Source: Firmicutes bacterium HGW-Firmicutes-1 (lineage in GTDB: Bacteria > Bacillota > Clostridia > Lachnospirales > Vallitaleaceae). Taken from it: DNA of 64,000 bases. The DNA lies in NCBI GenBank assembly GCA_002841625.1, contig PHAG01000002.1, positions 248,001-312,000 on the forward strand, written 5' to 3'. The translations under genes and the position numbers were made by a program. The stretch's first letter is position 1; the number at the start of each line of letters is the position of its first letter. The notes under the pieces are model-generated. The model did no database searches and was not told where the DNA came from. It saw only the letters and a program-made list of their open reading frames with translations. Shown here piece by piece: positions 5,428-38,456 of the stretch.

Positions 5428-6276
5428 ATGGAGATCATTGTTGCTAAAACAGCTGGTTTTTGTTTTGGAGTAGACAAAGCCATACAAAAAGTGAATAAAT
5501 TTATTGGTAAGGAAGTTATTTATACATATGGACCAATTATCCATAATCAGCAGGTCGTTAAGGATTTTGAGTCAAAGGGAGTTAAGGTTATTGACGATTT
5601 AGTTGAATTAGATAATATGCCGCTCGGAACGATCATTATTCGAAGCCATGGTGCTGGAAAGAATGACATTGATATCATGAGAAGCAAGGGCTTTAAAATA
5701 ATTGATGCCACATGTCCCTATGTGAAAAGAATTCATAGAATCGTTGAGGAATCAAGTCAACAAGGTAATAAAGTTATTATCATTGGCAGTCCTACACACC
5801 CAGAAGTAATTGGTATTAAAGGTTGGAGTAGTCAGAAGGTTAATATCATCGAAAATATCCAAGATATTGATGCTATAGTAATAGGTGAAGAAGATACTTT
5901 TTGCTTAGTTACCCAAACTACCTTCAATTTTTTAAAATACAAAGAAATTGTGAATAAATTGCAAAAAAGTGAAATTCATGTTATGATATACGAGACAATA
6001 TGTAGTGCCACAGAAGAAAGGCAAATGGAAGCTATTGAATTATCAAAAATAGCTACCAAAATGATCGTTATTGGCGGTAAACACAGTTCAAATACTCAAA
6101 AACTCTATCATATATGTAAAACCCAATGTAAGGATACTTATTACATTGAGACAGCAGAAGATTTGGTGTTGAATGTTTTTGACGATAATGATATTATAGG
6201 AATAACGGCAGGAGCGTCAACTCCAAAGAACATAATTGAGGAGGTCATTTTAAATGTCAGAAGAACAAAGCTTTGA
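5428..6276 (+). CDS. ispH: 4-hydroxy-3-methylbut-2-enyl diphosphate reductase
   Basis: Last enzyme of the MEP isoprenoid pathway, reducing HMBPP to IPP and DMAPP with a 4Fe-4S cluster. The 282-residue product carries the three cluster cysteines: C12 (AGFCFGVDKA), C96 (DATCPYVKR) and C192 (TICSATEERQ). The substrate-contacting histidines lie in GPIIHNQQV and SPTHPEV, and VIGGKHSSNT and TAGASTP are the usual C-terminal motifs. Its last 23 bases overlap the S1-domain gene in another frame. In several Clostridia these two proteins are fused; here they are separate but overlapping. Dxs, from the start of the same pathway, is encoded at 25998. Confidence 0.96.
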   Translation: MEIIVAKTAGFCFGVDKAIQKVNKFIGKEVIYTYGPIIHNQQVVKDFESKGVKVIDDLVELDNMPLGTIIIRSHGAGKNDIDIMRSKGFKIIDATCPYVKRIHRIVEESSQQGNKVIIIGSPTHPEVIGIKGWSSQKVNIIENIQDIDAIVIGEEDTFCLVTQTTFNFLKYKEIVNKLQKSEIHVMIYETICSATEERQMEAIELSKIATKMIVIGGKHSSNTQKLYHICKTQCKDTYYIETAEDLVLNVFDDNDIIGITAGASTPKNIIEEVILNVRRTKL

Positions 6277-7498
6277 ACAAATGTTGGAGGAGTCTTTAAT
6301 AGCGATTCGTAGAGGAGAGGTTATTGAAGGCACAGTAATTGGCGTTAATGATGACGAAATCTATGTCAACATTGGTTATAAATCAGACGGCATTATACCT
6401 AAGAGTGAATTTTCTAATTTTCCTTCTGTTAGCTTAAGAGACAGTGTGAAAGAAGGAGATAAGATTAGAGCGAAGGTTCTGAAAGTAAACGATGGTGAAG
6501 GACAAGTATTATTAACGTATAAGAGATTACAAACCGAAGAAGGACTTAAGAAAGTTGAGAAGCTTTGTAAATCTAAAGAAGAAGTAACCGGTAAAGTTTC
6601 ACTTGTTCTTGAAGGTGGATTGATTGTTATCATTGATGAAGTTAGAGTTTTTATTCCTGCTTCATTAGTTTCAGATTCATATGTCACAGATTTACAAGCG
6701 TACAAAAATCAAGAGATTACTTTTGTTATTACTGAAGTGAATCAAAAGAAAAATAGAATTATTGGTAATAGACGTATTCTTTTAGAACATGAAAAGAATA
6801 TTTTACAAGCGGAAACCTTTAAAACTCTTGCAGAAGGTGCAGTTTTAAATGGAGAAGTTAAAAATATTACTGATTATGGTGTATTTGTTAACCTCAAGGG
6901 AGTAGATGGACTAGTTCATATCTCCGAATTATCATGGGGTAGAGTTAAGTCTCCTAAGGATGTTGTAAAGGTTGGAGATATTGTTAAGGTTAAGGTTATT
7001 TCTATTAACATGGAAAAGAAAAAAGTTTCCTTAACGATGAAATTTCCAGAAGACAATCCATGGAACAATGCAGAACAAAAATATGCTGTAGGCAATGTTG
7101 TTGAAGGTAGAGTAGCTAGGATGACCGAATTTGGCGCATTTATTGAGCTTGAGGTTGGAGTAGATGCTTTATTACATGTATCACAAATTTCTGTAAAGCA
7201 TATTGAAAAGCCAAAGGATATTCTTAAAATCGGACAAACAGTTACTGCGAAGGTTACTGAATTAGATTTAGATGGCAAGAAAATCAGCTTATCAATTAAA
7301 GCTTTAGAATCAGATAAAGAAGTGGAAACTGAAGTTCAAGAAACAGAAGTTCAAGAAATCGTAACTCCAGTAGAAACACAAGTGGTAGACCAAGAAGAGC
7401 CACAAGTAGTAGATCAAGAAGAGCCACAAGTAGTAGAACAAGAAGAACCTCAAGCAAGCGAAGATGAGACGTTAAACGACTCAAATGATCAAGCATAA
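6254..7498 (+). CDS. rpsA: S1 RNA-binding domain protein (ribosomal protein S1 homologue)
   Basis: A 414-residue protein with four S1/OB-fold repeats: about residues 17-86 (GTVIGVNDDEIYVNIGYKSD), 105-172 (GKVSLVLEGGLIVII), 195-264 (GEVKNITDYGVFVNLKGVDG) and 280-350 (GRVARMTEFGAFIELEVGVD). Repeats 3 and 4 are the best conserved; repeat 2 is diverged. Firmicute S1 homologues have four repeats, against six in E. coli, and are thought to bind mRNA or the ribosome. The last 60 residues are acidic and low complexity, including three copies of an 8-residue VVDQEEPQ unit. Start ATG 6254 follows GAGGAGG inside the 3' end of ispH, which implies translational coupling. Confidence 0.92.
   Translation: MSEEQSFEQMLEESLIAIRRGEVIEGTVIGVNDDEIYVNIGYKSDGIIPKSEFSNFPSVSLRDSVKEGDKIRAKVLKVNDGEGQVLLTYKRLQTEEGLKKVEKLCKSKEEVTGKVSLVLEGGLIVIIDEVRVFIPASLVSDSYVTDLQAYKNQEITFVITEVNQKKNRIIGNRRILLEHEKNILQAETFKTLAEGAVLNGEVKNITDYGVFVNLKGVDGLVHISELSWGRVKSPKDVVKVGDIVKVKVISINMEKKKVSLTMKFPEDNPWNNAEQKYAVGNVVEGRVARMTEFGAFIELEVGVDALLHVSQISVKHIEKPKDILKIGQTVTAKVTELDLDGKKISLSIKALESDKEVETEVQETEVQEIVTPVETQVVDQEEPQVVDQEEPQVVEQEEPQASEDETLNDSNDQA
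7381..7452 (+). repeat. 24-bp in-frame tandem repeat in the S1-protein tail
   Basis: Three copies (7381-7404, 7405-7428, 7429-7452) encode a repeated acidic octapeptide (VVDQEEPQ type). The period equals eight codons, so copy number can change without shifting the frame. It lies downstream of all S1 domains in a probably disordered tail. Confidence 0.9.
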
Positions 7499-16031: not shown

Positions 16032-16073
16032 TTTATGAGGAAACATATATATGTCCTAGGAAGGTGGACAAGG

Positions 16074-17045
16074 ATGAAGTGCAATAGAATAGAAAATATT
16101 TTATCTGAAAGACTTAAGAGAGTATTAGAGGATATTAATGTAAGTACTGAACTACAAGAAATTCGATTAAGAGTAGACAAGCCTATTTTGATTTACTGGG
16201 GCAATAAGGAGTTTTTTGTTGGTAATGACCTAAAACTACGCACAACAGATGAAAATTGCTTATATGCAACAAATGATGACATAAAGGAGGTATTAGAATA
16301 TATTAGCAAACATTCACTATATGCTTATGAAGAGGATATAAGGAATGGTTATATAACAATAGAAGGCGGTCATAGAATTGGACTTGCAGGTAAGGTGGTT
16401 TTAGAGAATGGTAAGGTCAAAACCATTCGAAATGTATCTTGTATCAATATTAGAGTATCACATGAAATGAAGGGTTGTGCGGATCATATTTTGCCTTATA
16501 TTGTGAATGACGGTTTGATACATCATACGCTAATCATTTCTCCACCGAAATGCGGTAAGACAACCCTGCTTAGAGATATCGTAAGACAAGTTTCTGATGG
16601 CTTTATGAACTTTTGTGGTGTTAATGTGGGTTTAGTAGATGAGAGATCAGAAATTGGGGGTTGTTATAGAGGAATACCGCAAAATGATATTGGTAAGAGA
16701 ACAGATGTATTAGATAGTTGCAACAAAGGTGAGGGATTGCTGATGTTAATTAGAGCAATGGCACCACAAGTAATTGCCTTAGATGAAATTGGCAATAAAG
16801 ATGACATTGATGCAATTGAATATGCCTTAAATGCTGGATGTAAAATAATATGTACAGTACATGGAAATTCTATAAAAGATATTAAGGACAAACCCAAGTT
16901 ACAGGAATTAATAGAAAGAAAACTTTTTAAGCGATATATTTTTTTGGAAAATCAAAATAATATTGGTGATGTTAAAAAAATATATGATGAAGATCATAAA
17001 ATGATCAGTATGCTTGTAGATAAGAGGGTGTTAAAGGAGAGTTAA
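16074..17045 (+). CDS. spoIIIAA: Stage III sporulation protein AA (ATPase)
   Basis: Secretion-type ATPase of the SpoIIIA-SpoIIQ channel that links mother cell and forespore. The 323-residue product has Walker A SPPKCGKTTLLRDIVRQ, then VGLVDERSEIGGCYRG and Walker B QVIALDEIGN, followed by a sensor-like CTVHGNSIKDI. An earlier ATG at 16035 has no ribosome site and would fall at the putative transcription start; ATG 16074 follows AAGGTGG by 6 bases and is preferred. It is the first of eight genes in the classical order, and spoIIIAB begins one base after its stop. Confidence 0.94.
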   Translation: MKCNRIENILSERLKRVLEDINVSTELQEIRLRVDKPILIYWGNKEFFVGNDLKLRTTDENCLYATNDDIKEVLEYISKHSLYAYEEDIRNGYITIEGGHRIGLAGKVVLENGKVKTIRNVSCINIRVSHEMKGCADHILPYIVNDGLIHHTLIISPPKCGKTTLLRDIVRQVSDGFMNFCGVNVGLVDERSEIGGCYRGIPQNDIGKRTDVLDSCNKGEGLLMLIRAMAPQVIALDEIGNKDDIDAIEYALNAGCKIICTVHGNSIKDIKDKPKLQELIERKLFKRYIFLENQNNIGDVKKIYDEDHKMISMLVDKRVLKES

Positions 17046-17046
17046 T

Positions 17047-17562
17047 ATGAGAATTCTGGGGATGATGATGGTATTTATTTCTTGCTCAGGGATAGGTATC
17101 ACCTATAGTTACATATATAAAAAAAGGGTAGAGCAATTATGCGATTGGAAAAAAGGTATTGTTTTATTAAAAAATGAAATAAATTATGCGTTAACTCCAT
17201 TACCAGAAGCCTTCGAAACGATTGGGAAAAGACTTGATGGTGTAATGAGTAGATTTTTCAATGAAATTGGAACACTGTTGAAAACAAATAACAATAAGAC
17301 TATGAGTAATTTGAATGAAGCGGAAATAAAGAAATTACTAATTGATAACTGTTTAAATGAAAAGGATAGAAAAACGATTATTGGATTTATTAAAAACTTA
17401 GGTCTATTAGATAAGGAAAGTCAAATGAATAACCTTGAGTTACACATTAAATATCTCGAACAAGAAATTGATACCGCAAAAAAGGATGAAGAAAAAAACA
17501 ATAAATTATTCAAGACGCTAGGAATTCTATCAGGTATTTTTATTATAGTAATTTTCATTTAG
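17047..17562 (+). CDS. spoIIIAB: Stage III sporulation protein AB
   Basis: A 171-residue component of the mother-cell side of the SpoIIIA channel, resembling type II secretion GspF-like proteins. An N-terminal membrane segment (MMMVFISCSGIGITYSYIY) is followed by a helical cytoplasmic part containing the family segment CDWKKGIVLLKNEINYALTP, and a C-terminal hydrophobic stretch (LGILSGIFIIVIFI). RBS AAAGGAGAG overlaps the end of spoIIIAA, indicating tight coupling. Position in the operon supports the call. Confidence 0.92.
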   Translation: MRILGMMMVFISCSGIGITYSYIYKKRVEQLCDWKKGIVLLKNEINYALTPLPEAFETIGKRLDGVMSRFFNEIGTLLKTNNNKTMSNLNEAEIKKLLIDNCLNEKDRKTIIGFIKNLGLLDKESQMNNLELHIKYLEQEIDTAKKDEEKNNKLFKTLGILSGIFIIVIFI

Positions 17563-17594
17563 CCCTAGCGATAAAATACGTAGGAGATGATTCA

Positions 17595-17789
17595 ATGGAT
17601 ATTTCAATTATTTTTAAAATTGCAGCAGTAGGTATATTGATTTCTGTATTAAATCAAGTATTAGATAGGGCTGGAAGAGAAGAACAAGCTATGTTAACTA
17701 CTTTAGCAGGATTAGTTGTTGTTTTGTTTTGGGTTATACATTACATAAGTGATTTGTTTGTAGAAGTACAACAATTATTTCAACTTTAG
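17595..17789 (+). CDS. spoIIIAC: Stage III sporulation protein AC
   Basis: A 64-residue, highly hydrophobic channel subunit with two membrane segments. The conserved family core is IFKIAAVGILISVLNQVLDR followed by GREEQAMLTTLAGLVVV. RBS TAGGAGATG precedes the ATG. The next gene begins within 11 bases of its stop. Length and order are normal. Confidence 0.93.
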   Translation: MDISIIFKIAAVGILISVLNQVLDRAGREEQAMLTTLAGLVVVLFWVIHYISDLFVEVQQLFQL

Positions 17790-17800
17790 GATGGATGCAT

Positions 17801-18181
17801 ATGGAAATAGTACAGATAGTGATTATTGGATTGTGTGCTACAATTTTTATTGCAATTCTTGACAAACAAAAAGAATTCAAAGTATATATTAGCATTGTTG
17901 CGTCGGTCATTATTTTCTTCATATTTATTGATAAATTTGATTCCATCATTGCATTGTTTAACAAAATCAATGCTCTAATGAACATCGATGATGTCTATAT
18001 GAAAATACTACTTCAAATACTTGGTATAGCTTTTGTTACAGAGTTTGGTTCCCAATTATGCAAGGATTCAGGACAAAAATCAATAGCGAATAATATTGAA
18101 ATTGCAGGCAAGATTATTATTTTAGTTATTTCAGCACCAATCGTGTTGGGAATTATTAGCTTAATAGAATCAATTATGTAA
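17801..18181 (+). CDS. spoIIIAD: Stage III sporulation protein AD
   Basis: Polytopic membrane subunit of the SpoIIIA channel, about 126 residues with several hydrophobic helices and the family C-terminal segment ILLQILGIAFVTEFGSQLCK...ANNIEIAGKIIIL. Two in-frame ATGs exist, 17795 and 17801. The second gives better spacing from the AGGATGG sequence, and MEIVQIVIIGL resembles family starts, so I used it. It lies between spoIIIAC and spoIIIAE with minimal gaps. Confidence 0.9.
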   Translation: MEIVQIVIIGLCATIFIAILDKQKEFKVYISIVASVIIFFIFIDKFDSIIALFNKINALMNIDDVYMKILLQILGIAFVTEFGSQLCKDSGQKSIANNIEIAGKIIILVISAPIVLGIISLIESIM

Positions 18182-18229
18182 AATATCCCAAAAAGATAAC
18201 GATAATCAAATGATAAGAGGGCATCCGAT

Positions 18230-19432
18230 ATGAACAATTGGAGAAAAGCGTTAAAGGCTCTTATTACTTGTAGTATCATTTTATTGTTATTGATGACTAC
18301 AAGTCGTGGAGTAGAAATAAAAGATGAGGATGAAGCCATCAACATCGAAGAAGAATTGGAAAACATTAAAAATAGTCAAAATGAATTGGTTGATTATAGC
18401 AACATTCAACAGGCAATTGATCAAACAGTACAAAATAGTTATGAATTTGATTTCGAAAAACTTGTTACGAATATTCTAAGTGGACAGTATGAGTTAGAAG
18501 GAGAAACCATTGGGAGCATGATATTTGAGGCATTTTTCGAAGATATGAAAGCGAACATAGGAATTCTTATTCGAATTATTATTATTAGTATTATAGCTGC
18601 TTTTTTTAAGTCATTTACGCAATCCTTTGAAAATAAGCAAGTATCAGAAATGGGGTTTTTAATTGTTTTTTTATTAGTCATAGCTTCGGTTATACAGTCC
18701 TATCATCTATTAAATAGTGTAGCTAATGGGCTAATAGACAACCTTTTGATTTTTATAGAAGCGCTTGTACCAAGTCTCTTAACAGTAACCGTACTATCAG
18801 GAGCTGCAACATCATCGGTAATGTTTAGTGAAACCATGATTATGCTAATAGGAATTATTGATAATTTAATAAAAACATTTATGCTTCCATTTTTATACAT
18901 AATTATTATATTTGTTGTATTGAATACGCTTACGGATGAAGATAGTTTAAGTAAGATTATTGATATATTTAAAAAAGGTTACGAGTGGGCAATTAAGATT
19001 ATTTTATGGATATTTGTAGCTATGTTTGGTCTTCAGTCATTTGGGCTTCCTGTCGTTGATGGTATGATTTCCAGAACAGCTAAACAAACCATTGGTATCG
19101 TACCAATCATTGGTACTACTATTTCAGGTATGTCAGATATAGTTCTCGGCTGTGGGAGCCTGATTAAAAATGCTTTTGGAATTGGAGCAATCATTGCTAT
19201 TGTATTTGTTGCTGTTATTCCAGTGATTAAAATCGGTGTTATTGCTTTCATATATAAATTATCAGCAGCATTAATTGAACCAATATCAGAATCTAAACTT
19301 GTATCATGTTTGTCTAATGTGGGTGATGTATGCTTTTTATTACTTGGTACAGTTTTGATTGTTGTTTTATTATTCATTATTGCAATTGCAATGACACTTT
19401 TTCTAACAAATATAATGTTGTATATAAGGTGA
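18230..19432 (+). CDS. spoIIIAE: Stage III sporulation protein AE
   Basis: A 400-residue multi-pass membrane protein, the largest membrane subunit of the SpoIIIA complex. It has an N-terminal signal-like helix (ALITCSIILLLLMTTSRG), an extracytoplasmic segment rich in acidic residues to about residue 100, then about eight membrane spans. Family-typical stretches are SFGLPVVDGMISRTAKQTIG and GTTISGMSDIVLGCGSLIKN. RBS AGAGGGC lies upstream. It ends 4 bases before spoIIIAF. Confidence 0.93.
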   Translation: MNNWRKALKALITCSIILLLLMTTSRGVEIKDEDEAINIEEELENIKNSQNELVDYSNIQQAIDQTVQNSYEFDFEKLVTNILSGQYELEGETIGSMIFEAFFEDMKANIGILIRIIIISIIAAFFKSFTQSFENKQVSEMGFLIVFLLVIASVIQSYHLLNSVANGLIDNLLIFIEALVPSLLTVTVLSGAATSSVMFSETMIMLIGIIDNLIKTFMLPFLYIIIIFVVLNTLTDEDSLSKIIDIFKKGYEWAIKIILWIFVAMFGLQSFGLPVVDGMISRTAKQTIGIVPIIGTTISGMSDIVLGCGSLIKNAFGIGAIIAIVFVAVIPVIKIGVIAFIYKLSAALIEPISESKLVSCLSNVGDVCFLLLGTVLIVVLLFIIAIAMTLFLTNIMLYIR

Positions 19433-19436
19433 TATT

Positions 19437-20027
19437 ATGGAATTTTTATCAGATTGGGCAAAAAATATTGTTTATTATATTCTATTAGTGAAGTTAATCT
19501 CTCAATTACTACCAAATGGTAACATGAGTAAATATATTAAGTTGTTTACTGGGGTTTTATTAATTGTCGTTGTAATGGAACCAATCTTATCATTACGCAA
19601 TCTGGATCAGAAGGTATTAAGTAATATCATGAATATGGAAAATATGTTAGCGCATAAAGATTATAATAGTCAATCAAAAACATATAACCAAATCAATGAC
19701 CAGTTAGCAATCAATTTATATAAGAAACAAGTTGAAGAGCATATTAGAAAACTTGTTCATGATGAAGGTGTAGAAGTAAGCCGTATTGAAATAGAAGTTA
19801 ATGAAGATGAAGGGGATCATTTTGGTGAAATAGTTGCAATGAACCTAAATGTAAGAAAAGAAACCGCTAATAAAGGTGTGACGATTGACAAAATTGAAAT
19901 AGGCAATCATCATACGGCACATGATGTTACAGCAGAAGATATTATTATAGAAAAAAATATTAAAATTGCATTACGTGGCTTCTATAATATCGCTCCTGAT
20001 AATATGAATATTAGTATAAGCCAATGA
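19437..20027 (+). CDS. spoIIIAF: Stage III sporulation protein AF
   Basis: A 196-residue protein with two N-terminal membrane helices (NIVYYILLVKLISQLLPN and LFTGVLLIVVVMEPILSL) and a C-terminal ring-building-motif-like domain of about 130 residues facing the intermembrane space. The pattern PNGNMSKYIKLFTGVLL is typical of the family. It sits between spoIIIAE and spoIIIAG. A 64-base gap follows, with an AGGAGG site for the next gene. Confidence 0.9.
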   Translation: MEFLSDWAKNIVYYILLVKLISQLLPNGNMSKYIKLFTGVLLIVVVMEPILSLRNLDQKVLSNIMNMENMLAHKDYNSQSKTYNQINDQLAINLYKKQVEEHIRKLVHDEGVEVSRIEIEVNEDEGDHFGEIVAMNLNVRKETANKGVTIDKIEIGNHHTAHDVTAEDIIIEKNIKIALRGFYNIAPDNMNISISQ

Positions 20028-20091
20028 GGGGTCTTATGTATCATAAAAGCGGTATTTTAAAATATCTAAATAGTTTAGCAGGAGGATAAAA

Positions 20092-20670
20092 ATGAACTTT
20101 AAATTACCTAGTATTCAAAACAATAAACAAAAGAGAATTATCAATTTGTTATTTATCATATTTTGTATAGGATTTGCTTTTGTTATTTTTTACAAACAAA
20201 ACACTTCAGAAGAACAACAACCTAATAAACAATTAAATACCGCTGTTTTGCAAGAGGAAGACACCATTCATTATAGTGATGCAATAGAAAAAAAACTGGA
20301 AATTGAATTTGAGAAAATAGATGGTGTTGGAAGTGTAGATGTACTACTTACGATGAAAACAAAGGGGGAAGTGGTTCTTAATAAAGATTCACCTAACAGT
20401 TCTTCGAAAACTACAGAAAAGGATAAAGAAGGTGGAAGTAGAGAAAGCGAGGAAAATGATCAACAACAAATTACAGTTATGATAAAAAAAGGTGATGGTA
20501 GCGAAGAACCAATTATCATCAAGGAATTGTTGCCAGAAGTAAATGGGATTCTTATTATTGCAGAAGGTGGTGATGATCTGATTGTAAAAAATAATTTAAT
20601 TAATGCTGCAAAAGTATTATTAGATTTACCAGCGCATAAAATAGAAGTAATGAAAAGGGTTCCAAATTAA
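20092..20670 (+). CDS. spoIIIAG: Stage III sporulation protein AG
   Basis: A 192-residue protein with one N-terminal membrane helix (IINLLFIIFCIGFAFVIFY) and an extracytoplasmic domain that forms a large ring in the SpoIIIA channel of B. subtilis. Family motifs are IEKKLEIEFEKIDGVGSVDV near residue 65 and PEVNGILIIAEGGDD near the C terminus. The insertion between beta strands is low complexity and Ser/Lys/Glu rich (residues about 100-125). It lies 12 bases before spoIIIAH. Confidence 0.93.
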   Translation: MNFKLPSIQNNKQKRIINLLFIIFCIGFAFVIFYKQNTSEEQQPNKQLNTAVLQEEDTIHYSDAIEKKLEIEFEKIDGVGSVDVLLTMKTKGEVVLNKDSPNSSSKTTEKDKEGGSRESEENDQQQITVMIKKGDGSEEPIIIKELLPEVNGILIIAEGGDDLIVKNNLINAAKVLLDLPAHKIEVMKRVPN

Positions 20671-20682
20671 GGGGGAAAAAAT

Positions 20683-21363
20683 ATGAATACCTTTAAAAAA
20701 AATCAAATTATAATTACAGCTTTAGCGATTATGATTGCCATAGCTGGATACTTGAACTTTACTGATAAGGCTAGTATCAAAGAAGAAAAATATGTGTTCA
20801 ATAACAAAGGTTCAGATGTTACTCAGGATGCAGGTGTATTAGTACCTAATGAGGATGAGTTAACAAATGCAAATGTTATTGAAGAAATAATGGAAGAAAC
20901 TGCAACGACTGGAGAAAATGTAACCAGTGAGGAAACTGCAATCGTTGACGAAGCACAAAAAGAAACAGTAGGGGAAGCAGTATTTGTGAGTAGTAATTCT
21001 GTGGATAGCCGCTATTTTCTTGAAGAAAAAATTGATAGAGAACAAACAAGAGCCTACAGTATGGAAATATTACTTGGTGTGATTAACAATGAAAAATTAG
21101 GCGAAGAACAAAAAATTGATGCAGCTGCAAAAATGGTGGATTTACAGGATCGAATAGAAAAAGAAGCAGCAGCAGAATCTATTTTAGAAGCAAAGGGTTT
21201 TGAAGAAGTTTTTGTTAGAATGGATGAAAAAGGTGTAGATGTTGTTGTAAATGCAGAAAAACTAACTGAAAATGAGTTGGCACAAATTACTGATGTAGTA
21301 GCTAGAAAAACAGGTGTAGCAGCTGAACTGGTAGTGATTACACCTCTTAAAATAAATAAGTAA
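20683..21363 (+). CDS. spoIIIAH: Stage III sporulation protein AH
   Basis: A 226-residue protein whose B. subtilis homologue contacts SpoIIQ across the intermembrane space. It has an N-terminal membrane helix (QIIITALAIMIAIAGYLNF), a long acidic Thr/Glu-rich linker (about residues 60-110), then the ring-building domain with the segments INNEKLGEEQKIDAAAKMVDLQD and a C-terminal VVARKTGVAAELVVITPL. This is the last gene of the operon. A candidate promoter for the Asp23 paralogue follows. Confidence 0.92.
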   Translation: MNTFKKNQIIITALAIMIAIAGYLNFTDKASIKEEKYVFNNKGSDVTQDAGVLVPNEDELTNANVIEEIMEETATTGENVTSEETAIVDEAQKETVGEAVFVSSNSVDSRYFLEEKIDREQTRAYSMEILLGVINNEKLGEEQKIDAAAKMVDLQDRIEKEAAAESILEAKGFEEVFVRMDEKGVDVVVNAEKLTENELAQITDVVARKTGVAAELVVITPLKINK

Positions 21364-23791: not shown

Positions 23792-24682
23792 ATGATGGAA
23801 TTTAAATTAGAACTTAACAAACGTATAGATTATATTATAAATTTATTAAAAATATATTTGCCAAAGCAAGTAGAAAATAACGAACTATTAGTTGAAGCAA
23901 TGGCATATAGCTTATTAGCTGGTGGTAAAAGAATGCGACCTATTTTCATGTTGGAAGCATTTACCATATTGAATGGTGAAGGTAAAATTATAAATCCCTT
24001 CATGGCGGCAATTGAAATGATACATACGTATTCGTTAATTCATGATGACTTACCTGCACTTGATAATGATGAATTGCGAAGAGGTATGCCTACTTGTCAT
24101 GTTAAGTTTGGTGAGAATATCGCTATATTAGCTGGAGATGCACTTCTTAATCGTGCATTTGAAATAGCGATAGAGGAAGCTCTAATAAATCCTAAAATGA
24201 ACGTAATTAGGGCTATGAATGAAATCGGAAAGGCAGCTGGTGCCAATGGAATGATTGGTGGACAAGTTGCAGATGTATTAAATGAAAATAAGCCAATAGA
24301 TATTGAACTTCTTAACTATATTCACACCCATAAAACCTCTGCTATGATTGAAGCCTCTTTTGTTGTTGGGGCATTACTAGCAAACGCAACGGAAAGGGAA
24401 GTAGAAGTATTTAGAAGTATTGGTAAAAATATAGGATTAGCCTTTCAAATTCAAGATGACATACTAGATGTTACGGGTTCAGAATTTGAACTTGGAAAAC
24501 CAATTAATAGTGATGAAAAAAACAGCAAAGTAACTTATGTTACTCTGAAAGGTATGGAGAAGTCTACTCAAATTGTATTTGAACAATTAGAAGAGGCTGT
24601 AACATACCTTCAAAGCTTTGATTCAGATAAATGCGAATTTCTTCTAGCATTTATAGAATATTTAAAAACAAGGAATCATTAA
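23792..24682 (+). CDS. ispA: Farnesyl/geranyl diphosphate synthase
   Basis: Short-chain trans-prenyltransferase that condenses IPP with DMAPP/GPP. The 296-residue protein has LLAGGKRMRPIF, the first Asp-rich motif DDLPALDNDELRRG (usually DDLPAMDDDDLRRG, so one Asp is Asn and another Glu, both tolerated), GAxxxMIGGQVADV, HTHKTSAMI and the second Asp-rich motif FQIQDDILDVTG. Two ATG codons start the frame (23792 and 23795). Its product feeds undecaprenyl phosphate, quinone and other isoprenoids. It directly precedes OLE RNA, an arrangement known from other OLE-bearing Firmicutes. Confidence 0.95.
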   Translation: MMEFKLELNKRIDYIINLLKIYLPKQVENNELLVEAMAYSLLAGGKRMRPIFMLEAFTILNGEGKIINPFMAAIEMIHTYSLIHDDLPALDNDELRRGMPTCHVKFGENIAILAGDALLNRAFEIAIEEALINPKMNVIRAMNEIGKAAGANGMIGGQVADVLNENKPIDIELLNYIHTHKTSAMIEASFVVGALLANATEREVEVFRSIGKNIGLAFQIQDDILDVTGSEFELGKPINSDEKNSKVTYVTLKGMEKSTQIVFEQLEEAVTYLQSFDSDKCEFLLAFIEYLKTRNH

Positions 24683-24705
24683 ATGTTAGGATGAATAATG
24701 TGGTA

Positions 24706-24734
24706 TTTATATTTAAATAGAAATATGCTATAAT
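24706..24734 (+). promoter_or_regulatory. Candidate promoter for OLE RNA
   Basis: TATAAT (24729-24734) with a weak -35 (TTTATA, 24706-24711) at 17 bases. Transcription would start near 24741. The RNA may also be made by read-through from ispA. Confidence 0.4.
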
Positions 24735-24740
24735 AAACAT

Positions 24741-25312
24741 TCAGACTAAAGATGCAGTATTCTAGTCCTTCCACTTAATTTTGAAGACGGGGCTAAAAAT
24801 CCGTTAAAGGGCATACCGATGAAGTTCCTTGTGTTGGCTGGCGACGCCCAGTCGCGGGCTTATGCTGGGAGTTAAGACTTTAGGGCGATCCGCAATGGCA
24901 TGCGGGCGTTGACCCTTTTGTCGTGGAGACCAACGAATGTGGGAAGTTGCACTATGTGCATGCCTACGACGTTGGATTGAACCTGTCATGCGGCGAAAGC
25001 TGTGGACAGAGTAGCCTGCCTTGCGTGATCATAAATGGGAGAGCAAGTTAAACCTCCATTACCTTTGGCCAAAGATAATGTGAAGTTTTTGCTTGAAATT
25101 TTATTCGCAAAAGAGGCTAGGAATTATGGTGGATTGTTAGGGAAAACCTCTAGACTGTTCGAAAGAGATATATATAGGATTACAGTGTGATTATTCAAGG
25201 TGATCTAGCTCTACTGTTGGCAACACAGTAGGAATTTGTTTCATAGGAAACTACTCCTTTGGCGACAAAGAAGCACAAATTCGGGAAAACCTGCTAGACT
25301 ATATGTCGCAAA
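24741..25312 (+). ncRNA. ole: OLE RNA (ornate large extremophilic RNA)
   Basis: A stretch of about 570 bases with no sense coding frame, much less AT-rich and far more structured than its surroundings. It has the features I associate with OLE RNA: a 5' region with GAAGACGGGGCTAAAAATCC, GGCTGGCGACGCCCAGTCGC and GGGCGATCCGCAATGGCATG; a middle with GCGGCGAAAGCTGTGGACAG; and a 3' domain ending in GCGACA (25262) paired with TGTCGC (25304-25309). Location is the strongest support: between ispA and a membrane protein gene followed by dxs, the known OLE neighbourhood. OLE RNA forms a membrane ribonucleoprotein with OapA and other Oap proteins and is linked to ethanol/cold and metal stress and to energy adaptation. 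Exact ends are estimated. Confidence 0.88.
25262..25312 (+). terminator. 3' terminal hairpin of OLE RNA
   Basis: GCGACA (25262-25267) and TGTCGC (25304-25309) close a long branched loop at the 3' end of OLE RNA, followed by AAAATTTACT. There is no strong T-tract, so some read-through into oapA is expected. Confidence 0.45.
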
Positions 25313-25362
25313 ATTTACTATATATTATTGTCTTTGGTTTGTTAATTAAAAAGGAGATTAAG

Positions 25363-25398
25363 TTGAAATTGACAAGTTTAATTTTGACTTGTGTATAA
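25363..25398 (+). CDS. Possible 11-codon leader peptide before oapA
   Basis: AAGGAG (25351-25356) is followed after 6 bases by TTG 25363 and an 11-codon frame (reads MKLTSLILTCV) that ends in TAA at 25396-25398, inside the first codons of the OapA frame (GTG 25391). The only good ribosome site in this gap belongs to this tiny frame. It could couple translation into oapA, or the real oapA start may be read differently. No function is assumed. Confidence 0.3.
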   Translation: MKLTSLILTCV

Positions 25399-25399
25399 T
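25369..25399 (+). promoter_or_regulatory. Possible internal promoter at the oapA start
   Basis: Perfect TTGACA (25369-25374) and TATAAT (25394-25399) hexamers, but with a 19-base spacer. Initiation here would begin downstream of the proposed oapA start codon, so its role for oapA is doubtful; it could serve dxs. Confidence 0.3.
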
Positions 25400-25987
25400 T
25401 TGGAGTCGAAGGAAAAAAAAACAAAAGTAAAATTTAGAAGCTTATATACGCATAGATCGGTCAATTATTCTTGGATAATGGTGGTAACAATCATCACTTT
25501 TTTTATATCAATTATTTTGGGATATTTTTCCTTGGTAATAACCGAGAGGGTTTCGTTATATCTTGCAATCATTGTTCTCTTGCTCATTGTATTTACTGGT
25601 GTCTTTTTTGACTTATTAGGAATAGCAGTTACTGCTGCAGAAGAAACACCTTTTCACGCAATGGCTTCACATAGACTTAGAGGTGCAAAAGAAAGTATTA
25701 CAATACTTAGAAATGCTGGTCCAGTGGCTAACTTCTTCAATGATGTTATTGGCGATATTTCAGGAATTATTTCAGGTTCTGCATCAGCAGCAATATTGAT
25801 TAAAATAAATCAAAACATATCTGTACAATCTACCCTTGCTAGCCTTATATTAACTGCCATCATAGCAGCTATAACAGTTGGTGGTAAAGCAATAGGGAAG
25901 GAAATTGCACTTAGACATGCAAATTATGTTGTTTTTAAAATGGGCTATATTATAAGCTTTTTTAGCTTTAAAGGACAGAAGAAATGA
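25391..25987 (+). CDS. oapA: OLE-associated membrane protein OapA
   Basis: A 198-residue membrane protein with a basic N terminus (KVKFRSLYTHRSVNYSW) and about four hydrophobic helices: residues about 27-48, 52-72, 135-155 and 158-175. A conserved-looking loop between them contains ETPFHAMASHRLRGAKESI, the part I would expect to face the cytoplasm or the RNA. Identity rests on its position directly after OLE RNA and before dxs, and on the four-helix topology of OapA (the BH2780 type protein). The first in-frame start is GTG 25391; TTG 25400 is an alternative. Neither has a proper Shine-Dalgarno, which is odd. RBS GAGGACG of dxs lies at its stop. Confidence 0.8.
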   Translation: MYNLESKEKKTKVKFRSLYTHRSVNYSWIMVVTIITFFISIILGYFSLVITERVSLYLAIIVLLLIVFTGVFFDLLGIAVTAAEETPFHAMASHRLRGAKESITILRNAGPVANFFNDVIGDISGIISGSASAAILIKINQNISVQSTLASLILTAIIAAITVGGKAIGKEIALRHANYVVFKMGYIISFFSFKGQKK

Positions 25988-25997
25988 GGACGATTAA

Positions 25998-27866
25998 ATG
26001 GGTAAATTATTAGATAAGATTCAAGGACCTAAGGATTTAAAAGCTTTACAGGTCGAACAATTAGGTAACTTATCACGAGAAATCAGAAAATATCTTGTTG
26101 AAGTGGTCAGTGAAGGTGGTGGACATCTAAGCTCCAATCTTGGGGTTGTAGAATTGACCATTGCACTTCACTATTGCTTTCATTCTCCAGTAGATAAAAT
26201 TATTTGGGATGTAGGCCACCAAAGTTATGTGCACAAAATATTGACAGGTCGCAAAGATGCCTTAAAAACAATTAGAAGGTTAGATGGCATAAGTGGATTT
26301 CCTAAAACAGAGGAGAGTCCTCATGATGCATATAATACAGGACATAGTTCAACCTCTATTTCTGCGGCACTTGGGTTTGCTAGTGCAAGAGATTTACTAA
26401 ACCAGAAAAATTATGTAATTCCAATTATTGGTGATGGCGCTTTAACTGGTGGACTAGCTTTTGAGGCATTAAACAATGCAGCCAATTTGAAAAGTAATTT
26501 TATCGTTATTTTAAATGATAATCAAATGTCCATTTCTGAAAATGTTGGGGGCATATCTTTATATTTAGATTCTATTCGTACAGCAAGCTTTTATAACGAG
26601 GTAAAAGAAGACGTTCAAAAGGTTCTTCGAAAGATACCTAAATATGGTGAAGGCGTAATTAATGCAGTTCGAGACGTAAAGGATAGTGTTAAACAGTTAT
26701 TTATTCCTGGGATGTTTTTTGAAGAAATGGGGTTTACTTACCTAGGTCCAATTGATGGACATAATATTAAGCAAGTGATTACAACATTAAATCAAGCAAA
26801 AAAAGTTGATGGACCAACATTAATTCACGTAAATACTGTAAAGGGTAAAGGCTATAAATATGCGGAAGCCTTTCCTTCAAAATTTCATGGTACACGTCCT
26901 TTTATCAAAGAAAGCGGAGATGTAAAAAGCGAGTCAAAAGGAAAGAGCTTTTCTAAAACTTTTGGTGCAGCCTTACTTGATTTAGCAAAAGATAACAGTA
27001 AGATTGTTGCTATAACTGCTGCTATGCCAGAAGGTACTGGACTAGATGAATTTGCTGTAAAATATCCGCAGAGGTTTTTTGATGTTGGAATAGCAGAGCA
27101 GCATGGAGTAACATTTGCAGGTGGTTTAGCGATGTCTGGACTTAAACCATTTATTGCTATCTATTCCTCGTTTTTACAACGGGCTTATGATCAGATTTTG
27201 CATGATATTTGCTTGCAGAAGCTACCGGTAGTTTTCTGTGTAGATAGGTCAGGGATCGTTGGTGAAGATGGCGAAACCCATCAAGGAATTTTTGATACAT
27301 CCTTTCTGGGACACATACCAAATATGACTATTATGGCGCCCAAAAATTCGGTAGAATTAGTAGAAATGATAAATTTATCAGCGCTATATTATGATGGACC
27401 AATTAGTATTAAATATCCGAGAGGAATTGATGCTCTAGAGCATTTTGAAGATACTGTTCCAGTACTATTTGGTAAGTCAGAAACCATATATAAAGGCAAT
27501 CAAATAGGTATCATTTCAGTTGGAACAATGTGTAAACAAGCACTAGATGTATGTGATAAATTGTTAGAAAAAGGGTATTCACCTACATTAGTCAATGCTA
27601 GATTTATTAAGCCAGTAGATAAGGAATGTATACTTGAACTTGCCAACAATCATGAAGTTTTGGTGGTGATTGAAGAGAATGTTATTTCTGGTGGTTATGG
27701 TGTAGAAGTGTTACAAGTAGCAAGCGGGGTATGTAGAGTACTCCTTTGTGGAATTGAGGATACCTTCGTTACCCATGGTAGTAGAGATGAACTATTAGAT
27801 CAATGTGGATTAAGTTCAGAAAAGCTATACGATAGAATTATCGATTATATTAAGGATATCAAATAG
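25998..27866 (+). CDS. dxs: 1-deoxy-D-xylulose-5-phosphate synthase
   Basis: Thiamine-diphosphate enzyme joining pyruvate and glyceraldehyde 3-phosphate, the first step of the MEP pathway. The 622-residue protein has the N-terminal SNLGVVELTIALHY and WDVGHQSYVHKILTGR, the ThDP motif GDGALTGG...NDNQMSISENVGG, GPIDGHN, then the pyrimidine-binding transketolase domain (FDVGIAEQHGVTFAGG, CVDRSGIVGEDGETHQG) and the C-terminal domain (VVIEENVISGGYG). All motifs are intact. It follows oapA by 10 bases and is followed by tlyA, as in Bacillus. Confidence 0.97.
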   Translation: MGKLLDKIQGPKDLKALQVEQLGNLSREIRKYLVEVVSEGGGHLSSNLGVVELTIALHYCFHSPVDKIIWDVGHQSYVHKILTGRKDALKTIRRLDGISGFPKTEESPHDAYNTGHSSTSISAALGFASARDLLNQKNYVIPIIGDGALTGGLAFEALNNAANLKSNFIVILNDNQMSISENVGGISLYLDSIRTASFYNEVKEDVQKVLRKIPKYGEGVINAVRDVKDSVKQLFIPGMFFEEMGFTYLGPIDGHNIKQVITTLNQAKKVDGPTLIHVNTVKGKGYKYAEAFPSKFHGTRPFIKESGDVKSESKGKSFSKTFGAALLDLAKDNSKIVAITAAMPEGTGLDEFAVKYPQRFFDVGIAEQHGVTFAGGLAMSGLKPFIAIYSSFLQRAYDQILHDICLQKLPVVFCVDRSGIVGEDGETHQGIFDTSFLGHIPNMTIMAPKNSVELVEMINLSALYYDGPISIKYPRGIDALEHFEDTVPVLFGKSETIYKGNQIGIISVGTMCKQALDVCDKLLEKGYSPTLVNARFIKPVDKECILELANNHEVLVVIEENVISGGYGVEVLQVASGVCRVLLCGIEDTFVTHGSRDELLDQCGLSSEKLYDRIIDYIKDIK

Positions 27867-36425: not shown

Positions 36426-38456
36426 TTAATATGAAAGAGTAAGTTTTTGTTGTTTTGAATCCCAGACTAGGGCAACTCCCATTGTGTCAGCAAAAAATCT
36501 AACGGGAAGATATGTCCTGCCATTTCTTATGGTTAATGGTGTTTTAATATTGATCAATTCTCCATCTAGCAAAGCTGTCTTTGAATCAGCGGTCAAAACT
36601 AAGGTAGAGTTGTTGTACTTAAGAGTTACTGTTTTGCTTTTTTCTTCCCAAGCGATTGTTCCTCCCAAATTTTCAATAAGAGCCCTGGCTGGAATATATG
36701 TACGAGAGTCAATAATGATTGGGGTAGTGTTTGCATTTTGTTCGATTTTTATCTTTTCATTGTTTTTATATAAATAGGGGTCATTTATTTTCATTGTTAC
36801 TATGCTTTCATAGGTTGAATAAAAGCTTAAATTAAATGTTTTTTCACTTGCAAGTTGATTATTAGAATCATAAACTTTAATTCTTAATTTTGCAATTGGT
36901 GCCTTGTAGTTAGTGAAATCATAATTCAATTCAAAAGGCATAGCAGTGCTTGTTGCTATAAGCTTCCGATCTAAATAGTATTCAACTTTTCCAATAAATG
37001 GATCATAAATATATGCATACGTACTTAGCTTGATGGCTTCTTTTTTTAACAATTGATCTTTAATTTCTTCATAATATATTGGTGATGAGCTGTTTAATTT
37101 AGAAATATAATAGGGAGAAGCAATCATTTGTGAATAAAGCTCACTTGCTGCTTTATTATCCTCAAGCTCATATTTGTTAATACCGGGTGAAGCGTTGAAA
37201 TAGGTTATTCCTTTTATACCGGGGAAAATTCTTGGCAAGTAATGATACACTTTTTCAAGGTTATTTCCATACCAATCATTGAAATCAACATCCGGAAAAT
37301 AGCTATTATAATAGGAAGGAGCACCTTCTGCTATCATAATTGGTTTTCTTCCTACAAATGCTTGATAGATGAATTCCAACTTTTCAATAGGGTTAACATT
37401 CATATTCGATAAACTAACACGATTATTGCCATCAGGTGTTGCGTAAGAACTAACACCAATCCAATCAACGTATTTGTCTCCAGGATAATAACTAAGCATT
37501 GTACTAAATGGAATATCATTAGGAGACCATAACATCATAACATTCGGTGCTTCTTCTGCCATAATGTCATGAATTAATCTGAACTTTTGTTTGTATTTTT
37601 CGGGGTCACCATACCAAGGAACCCAATCTCCATTCATTTCACAAGCAAATCTTAAATAGATAGGTAAACCTGAAGCTTTGGCATCTTTTGCCCAAGTACG
37701 AATATATTCATTATCTACAACACTATCAAGTCCTAACATAGGTTCCATAGCAATTTGAAATCCCATATTTTTACCTTCTAACAGTTCTGCTTGAATCGTA
37801 GGGAACTTTGAAACTCCAAAAGTTGAGTAGCATAATAAGATACCCAGGTCTCTACCAAATGTAGAAGAAAATAAATCAGTATCTACATATCCTCCTGAGG
37901 TTAATCTTAAATCAGGTTCAGCATACATTCCAATGTAGGCACCATATTTGGGCACATATAAAGCATTGCTTATTGAAGAATTCGCTGCTTTTTTTTCATA
38001 GAACAATCTGATATCAACTCTTAGATCATTTGCCTTATCCTTAACCTTAACTGCATATACAGACTGTTTGGCTTCTATATAAGCATAATGGCTTTTATCA
38101 TAATACTCTACAGCAAGCTCTGAGTCTGTCGAAAAATCTCCATATATACCAGCATAATAATTACCTATCTTTTCTAAATAGATTGCATAGTTCATAGGGG
38201 TCAATTGCTCACGAATAGATAATATCTTTAAAAAAGGGCTTGATTGACCAGTAGCGGCCTCATGAATAGATACAATCTTTAACCAAGTATTGAATGCTTT
38301 TTCATACTCTCGATTATCAAAGTACTTAGCTGCCAATACTTGCTCTGACCAAATATCTGTATCACTAGCAAATGCCGATGGAGTAGGCACTGCGGATAAA
38401 ACCATTAGAATTGCCATAGCCAATGGATATATAATTTTGCTTCTTACCTTGTGCAT
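36426..38456 (-). CDS. Secreted GH26-like glycoside hydrolase with copper-amine-oxidase-N stalk domains
   Basis: A 676-residue exported protein. Residues 1-30 are a signal peptide (KIIYPLAMAILMVLSAVPTPSAFA). Residues about 175-450 resemble the GH26 mannanase/glucanase TIM barrel, with YIGMYAEPD, LRFACEMNGDWVPWYGD (candidate acid/base Glu), MMLWSPND and PIMIAEGAPSYYNS (candidate nucleophile Glu). Residues about 470-550 look like a beta-sandwich (KVEYYLDRKLIATSTAMPFE). Residues about 575-676 form a copper amine oxidase N-terminal-like domain pair (TYIPARALIENLGGTIAWEE and TYLPVRFFADTMGVALVWDS), common in clostridial surface proteins. Substrate is inferred only. RBS AAGGGAGG precedes ATG 38456. 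The gaps 36236-36425 and 38457-38672 hold no gene. Confidence 0.75.
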   Translation of the reverse strand: MHKVRSKIIYPLAMAILMVLSAVPTPSAFASDTDIWSEQVLAAKYFDNREYEKAFNTWLKIVSIHEAATGQSSPFLKILSIREQLTPMNYAIYLEKIGNYYAGIYGDFSTDSELAVEYYDKSHYAYIEAKQSVYAVKVKDKANDLRVDIRLFYEKKAANSSISNALYVPKYGAYIGMYAEPDLRLTSGGYVDTDLFSSTFGRDLGILLCYSTFGVSKFPTIQAELLEGKNMGFQIAMEPMLGLDSVVDNEYIRTWAKDAKASGLPIYLRFACEMNGDWVPWYGDPEKYKQKFRLIHDIMAEEAPNVMMLWSPNDIPFSTMLSYYPGDKYVDWIGVSSYATPDGNNRVSLSNMNVNPIEKLEFIYQAFVGRKPIMIAEGAPSYYNSYFPDVDFNDWYGNNLEKVYHYLPRIFPGIKGITYFNASPGINKYELEDNKAASELYSQMIASPYYISKLNSSSPIYYEEIKDQLLKKEAIKLSTYAYIYDPFIGKVEYYLDRKLIATSTAMPFELNYDFTNYKAPIAKLRIKVYDSNNQLASEKTFNLSFYSTYESIVTMKINDPYLYKNNEKIKIEQNANTTPIIIDSRTYIPARALIENLGGTIAWEEKSKTVTLKYNNSTLVLTADSKTALLDGELINIKTPLTIRNGRTYLPVRFFADTMGVALVWDSKQQKLTLSY

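Follow-up and report, generated by a model that had tools for sequence, protein, structure and literature searches.

The OLE RNA class (Rfam RF01071) has been catalogued in 2,822 Bacillota genomes (PMC11332333). Surroundings of ispA, dxs and sporulation genes are its known setting (PMC12265935, PMC11332333), and in Halalkalibacterium halodurans the cluster has been described as one polycistronic RNA (PMC12265935). Dimer contacts in P4, P5.1/P6.1 and P9 have been described in other species, and P12.2/P13 is the binding region of OapB (PMC12265935). In H. halodurans, a CCUCCU anti-Shine-Dalgarno mimic has been reported for bS21 binding. What is said about OLE function draws on four papers (PMC11332333, PMC12265935, PMC9723947, PMC12054373), and the genetic evidence for a stress and homeostasis role through the membrane protein OapA comes from H. 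halodurans alone. The function is unsettled, as an earlier note on this DNA had it and as PMC11332333 likewise states.

The locus described here lies in a 64,000-nt stretch of DNA, referred to as the window, in which a covariance-model search gave RF01071 as the sole Rfam match. The match is full length (model positions 1-616) and scores 455.9 bits (E 1.3e-130), the gathering score being 50 bits. In the RF01071 alignment, 137 of the 159 modelled pairs are standard pairs. The genome (3.95 Mb, 99% complete) holds one OLE copy according to Rfam. It is virtually certain that 24733-25350 is a genuine full-length OLE RNA next to oapA. The gene and its neighbours are arranged as follows.

23792-24682, plus strand: ispA, the upstream neighbour, encoding farnesyl diphosphate synthase (328.5 bits to NCBIfam NF045485, exceeding its cut-off)
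24733-25350, plus strand: OLE RNA gene, full length
25391-25987, plus strand: oapA, membrane protein of 195-198 aa starting at GTG 25391 or TTG 25400 (ORF, DVIGD motif, predicted CNNM-like fold)
25998-27866, plus strand: dxs, 1-deoxy-D-xylulose-5-phosphate synthase, downstream neighbour (TIGR00204, 801.5 bits)

The earlier note had described about 570 bases at this place as non-coding, GC-rich and strongly pairing, and this is confirmed on all three counts. The interval from ispA to oapA (24682 to 25391) has no sense frame of at least 60 aa, and the lone frame of that size is antisense (61 aa, 24804-24989). Windows of 300 bases with starts at 24700-24850 have a G+C content of 0.46-0.47, compared with 0.28-0.38 in the surroundings, and the fold of the OLE strand beats 20 of 20 dinucleotide shuffles (z -3.4). 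Its assignment to OLE RNA stood up to the covariance-model check, and its placement between ispA and a four-helix membrane protein gene followed by dxs corresponds to the usual OLE neighbourhood. The span of 24741-25987 that it gave is essentially OLE plus oapA, but its inner limits shift: OLE reaches 25350 by the model, and oapA starts at TTG 25400 or GTG 25391. As thousands of members of the class have already been catalogued, the OLE/oapA locus is a typical further example of it and not a new kind.

The wider gene order is spoIIIA genes (16035-21363), nusB-like, xseA, xseB, ispA, OLE, oapA and dxs, followed by FtsJ/S4 methyltransferase, NAD kinase, argR, recN, spoIVB and spo0A genes. spoIIIAF and spoIIIAG were named by TIGR02896 and TIGR02830, and some spoIIIA members and nusB by position and eye. 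Elsewhere in the window, a 29-base unit is repeated in tandem (3.5 copies, 97% matches) between two open frames at 1558-1658, and short tandem repeats of 15 and 24 bases at 7325-7454 fall within the 3' portion of frame 6254-7498. The minus-strand stretch 36426-38456 probably encodes a secreted protein whose middle looks like a glycoside hydrolase and whose C-terminal part looks like a copper amine oxidase, as judged by eye from sequence alone.

We then compared the RNA with the full-length type of the class (Fernando and Breaker 2024). It shares the 616-position model, the conserved loops and junctions, the place before oapA, and the ispA/dxs/sporulation surroundings. Five elements inside the RNA can be placed.

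24786-24805, plus strand: hairpin whose conserved A-rich loop (GCUAAAAA) corresponds to the dimer contact of P4 seen by cryo-EM (PMC12265935)
24815-24877, plus strand: P5/P5.1 region, with the OapC kink-turn strands 24815-24824 and 24867-24877 (RF01071 alignment, comparison)
24876-24922, plus strand: P6/P6.1 region, the bS21 binding site in H. halodurans
25051-25086, plus strand: P9 tip with the palindromic loop UGGCCA, a self-kissing dimer contact (PMC12265935, PMC12286853)
25211-25274, plus strand: two GNRA-capped domain 2 hairpins, 25211-25231 and 25253-25274, in the expected OapB area (P12.2/P13; helix naming approximate)

All three dimer contacts are present at the sequence level, namely the P4 A-rich loop, the P5.1 loop GCCCA with the complementary P6.1 loop AUGGCA, and UGGCCA of P9. 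Different from the class, the CCUCCU of P6 is not kept and reads CCCUUUU here, and several mismatches occur in modelled helices at 24930-24975 and 25051-25086. The third difference concerns the OapC kink-turn. Its essential pair, C24817-G24876 (85-144 in H. halodurans numbering), is kept, and the neighbouring C24816-A24877, at position 84, is a mismatch. This C-A pair is found in both species of the genus; the other 18 family sequences have U-A, and most class sequences have U-G or U-A, with A at position 84 in a few. The effect of the mismatch on OapC binding is uncertain, since changing that position to A in H. halodurans made OapC binding weaker without abolishing it and function was kept (PMC9723947). 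As a separate observation, the OLE RNAs of another genus, g5 (L028, L029 and L030), have a domain 2 hairpin that is eight bases shorter and has lost its GNRA loop; the hairpin is GNRA-capped in other relatives.

The oapA ORF begins 41 bases after the end of OLE RNA. The earlier note's assignment of its product to the OapA family is borne out by 37-65% identity to proteins directly behind OLE in relatives outside the genus (Clostridia and Bacilli), including Halalkalibacter. The identity is 87% within the genus, where the sister species retains all hallmark residues. Among named relatives, HGW-Firmicutes-7 (87%), Petrocella, Vallitalea and Anaerotalea come closest. Against Pfam CNNM (PF01595) the protein scores 16 bits, below the gathering cut-off of 28.4, and such sub-threshold similarity has also been reported for OapA (PMC11332333). 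The DxxxD motif, which is the feature separating OapA from other CNNM proteins, reads DVIGD, and its D115 and D119 are invariant across 35 relatives. OapA of H. halodurans and relatives likewise has DxxxD, four long helices, about 195 aa, weak CNNM similarity, and OLE directly upstream. The differences from that type are the start codon here, GTG or TTG, which lacks a ribosome-binding site of its own, and an identity of about 41-48% to the proteins of the Bacilli (Halalkalibacter, Rossellomorea, Fictibacillus). NCBIfam has no OapA model.

An AlphaFold model of OapA built from our own alignment (pLDDT 82.6) predicts four long helices, 23-50, 53-79, 106-136 and 142-172. In a Foldseek search with this model, the six best PDB folds are CNNM/CorB/CorC transporters, both archaeal CorB and bacterial CorC (probability 0.85-1.00), with modest TM-scores of 0.40-0.54 and E-values to CorB of 0.0013 and up, above the 0.001 line. 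The predicted fold is thus CNNM-like with modest fold scores, and its transmembrane part resembles archaeal CorB (7m1t/7m1u) and the membrane domain of CorC (7cfg). Unlike MpfA, CorB and CorC, OapA has no CBS or CorC_HlyC domains, carries DxxxD, and has one more transmembrane helix (PMC11332333). A PDB sequence search with OapA also returned viral spike proteins at weak, chance-like scores (E 0.0017 at best and mostly 0.1), which were rejected as low-scoring, compositional and functionally senseless matches.

The tie between the RNA and the protein gene holds among relatives. Rfam finds OLE upstream of oapA at 13 of 14 checked loci; at the 14th, a contig end leaves 127 bases of sequence ahead of oapA. 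We also looked for oapA without OLE: of ten loci at which a simple motif had been missed and which were sent to Rfam, nine gave OLE matches, and a contig end truncates the tenth (L149). The RNA occurs in all 22 genomes of the family (Vallitaleaceae-like) and in 86 of 196 genomes of the class, and in none of the nine listed genomes of other families of the same order.

Two control elements flank OLE RNA.

24726-24734, plus strand: predicted extended -10 promoter element TGCTATAAT of OLE (motif recurrence), with the transcription start expected near 24740-24743
25351-25398, plus strand: AAGGAG ribosome-binding site (25351-25356), then an 11-codon frame from TTG 25363 to TAA 25396-25398 (sequence; Shine-Dalgarno and start conserved in the sole congener)

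The -10 candidate scores 10 of 12 and is preceded by TG. Just upstream of OLE, the motif TGnTATAAT occurs at 13 of the 20 loci from the family and at 13 of the 29 from the class, and it mostly precedes the conserved CAGTAT by 16-23 bases; these 49 loci are related, so that their counts are not independent events, and they cover several genera and differing upstream genes. First-order resampling gives about 0.5 occurrences per set, or about 1 over the 49 loci. Because the motif recurs at 26 of the 49 loci, where about 1 occurrence would be expected, the comparison suggests that OLE has its own promoter in Clostridia. Given the polycistronic RNA of H. halodurans, a dedicated clostridial OLE promoter is a testable addition; it was not found stated in the cited OLE literature, a scope to which the 2006 discovery paper does not belong. 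The fixed motif is informative, and a crude two-hexamer promoter score is uninformative in this AT-rich DNA. A second promoter-like sequence before oapA (TTGACA, 19 bases, TATAAT) was dropped, as it is not conserved in the sister species.

The start of oapA also has an unusual context. The 11-codon frame stops at the oapA start, and its counterpart in the sister species has 7 codons. In both species, AAGGAG precedes the conserved TTG of oapA by 44 bases. In relatives the ribosome-binding site is usually 6-9 bases upstream of the oapA start, and the short-frame arrangement as such is absent. With two sequences, a claim of translational coupling of oapA would be premature.

The same genome was inspected for OLE partners by family searches and regional reads. 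The OapB gene (L037:11933-12229) sits between map and infA, and its product matches OLE-associated protein B of PDB 7k9b with E 5.9e-12; YbxF/OapC is encoded between rpoC and rpsL (L038:6731-6970; PDB 4lck and 3v7e). A second L7Ae-type protein, the YbxF/OapC paralogue YlxQ, is also encoded (L040:3846-4148). Of these two, only YbxF/OapC is an OLE partner in H. halodurans. bS21 is encoded next to a YqeY-like gene. Because OapB, YbxF/OapC and bS21 are all encoded, every protein partner shown to be needed in H. halodurans is present, and the known particle could be complete. In addition, the genome encodes two full-length MpfA-type CNNM-CBS-CorC proteins (L041:3460-4773 and L042:2963-4225). Among the other 21 family genomes, 11 have one such protein and 10 have none, so that two is the highest count among the 22. 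The usual pattern in OLE bacteria is at most one MpfA, and the two MpfA-type transporters here run counter to it.

We consider it very probable that ole and oapA here belong to a Vallitaleaceae-like clostridium and work together as an OLE-OapA particle. OLE would probably be transcribed from its own extended -10 promoter and by read-through of upstream genes, and then be processed away from the oapA-dxs message, by analogy with H. halodurans. It would fold into the known ornate structure and dimerize through three contacts: the A-rich loop of P4, the kissing loops of P5.1 and P6.1, and the palindrome of P9. The dimer would bind the four-helix, CNNM-like OapA, presumably at the membrane, together with OapB, YbxF/OapC and bS21. 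By the same analogy, the most likely role of the particle is to sense stress and, through OapA, to adjust divalent-metal and carbon/energy homeostasis. In the best-supported model, the OLE dimer would organize OapA in the membrane and link stress to metal and energy homeostasis partly via OapC, OapB and bS21. The kink-turn mismatch, the altered CCUCCU, the two MpfA-type transporters and the modest fold scores weigh against this reading.

Two readings that deny such a particle are each highly improbable. Were the OLE copy decaying or non-functional, with its job taken over by MpfA proteins, the two CNNM-CBS-CorC proteins, the most among the family genomes, would fit, as would the kink-turn C-A mismatch and the weakened oapA start context in the genus. 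However, the OLE match is full length and untruncated with most modelled pairs formed and the dimer loops intact, the sister species keeps a closely similar OapA with its hallmark residues, OapB, OapC and bS21 are retained, and that sister species shows the same kink-turn change yet has one MpfA. The structured stretch could also be mainly a cis-acting, riboswitch-like leader regulating translation of oapA or dxs, as it lies directly upstream of oapA, no intrinsic terminator was found between the two, and the genus has an upstream short frame at the oapA start. Against this, OLE is a separate protein-bound RNA in H. halodurans (PMC9723947, PMC12265935), neither a terminator nor a start-site-sequestering switch is seen, and the OLE-oapA distance varies widely in relatives.

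What the particle does is a more balanced matter. We give even chances to a metal-transport mechanism of OLE-OapA. It is a substantial possibility, somewhat short of even, that OLE and OapA act jointly and that the key activity is something other than metal homeostasis, for example a ribozyme reaction or translation control via bS21; in size and conservation OLE resembles a ribozyme, and bS21 has been proven to be a partner (PMC11332333, PMC12054373). The predicted Mg2+ transporter fold of OapA speaks for metal homeostasis instead, as do the Mg2+ sensitivity of OLE mutants and the anticorrelation of OLE with MpfA (PMC11332333). A rewired particle in this genus, with a kink-turn that weakens OapC recognition, oapA coupled to the upstream frame, and a second MpfA sharing the work, is very unlikely.

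Returning to the OLE-OapA particle, the finding places a well-preserved OLE locus and all known partners in one genome, from a family with OLE in every examined genome. The promoter motif suggests that OLE in Clostridia is transcribed alone and not only within a long message. If the rewiring were true, the lineage would stand naturally halfway between control of metal and stress by RNA and such control by proteins alone. A genome that has OLE together with two MpfA is a natural setting in which to test whether OLE-OapA and MpfA overlap, as has been proposed.
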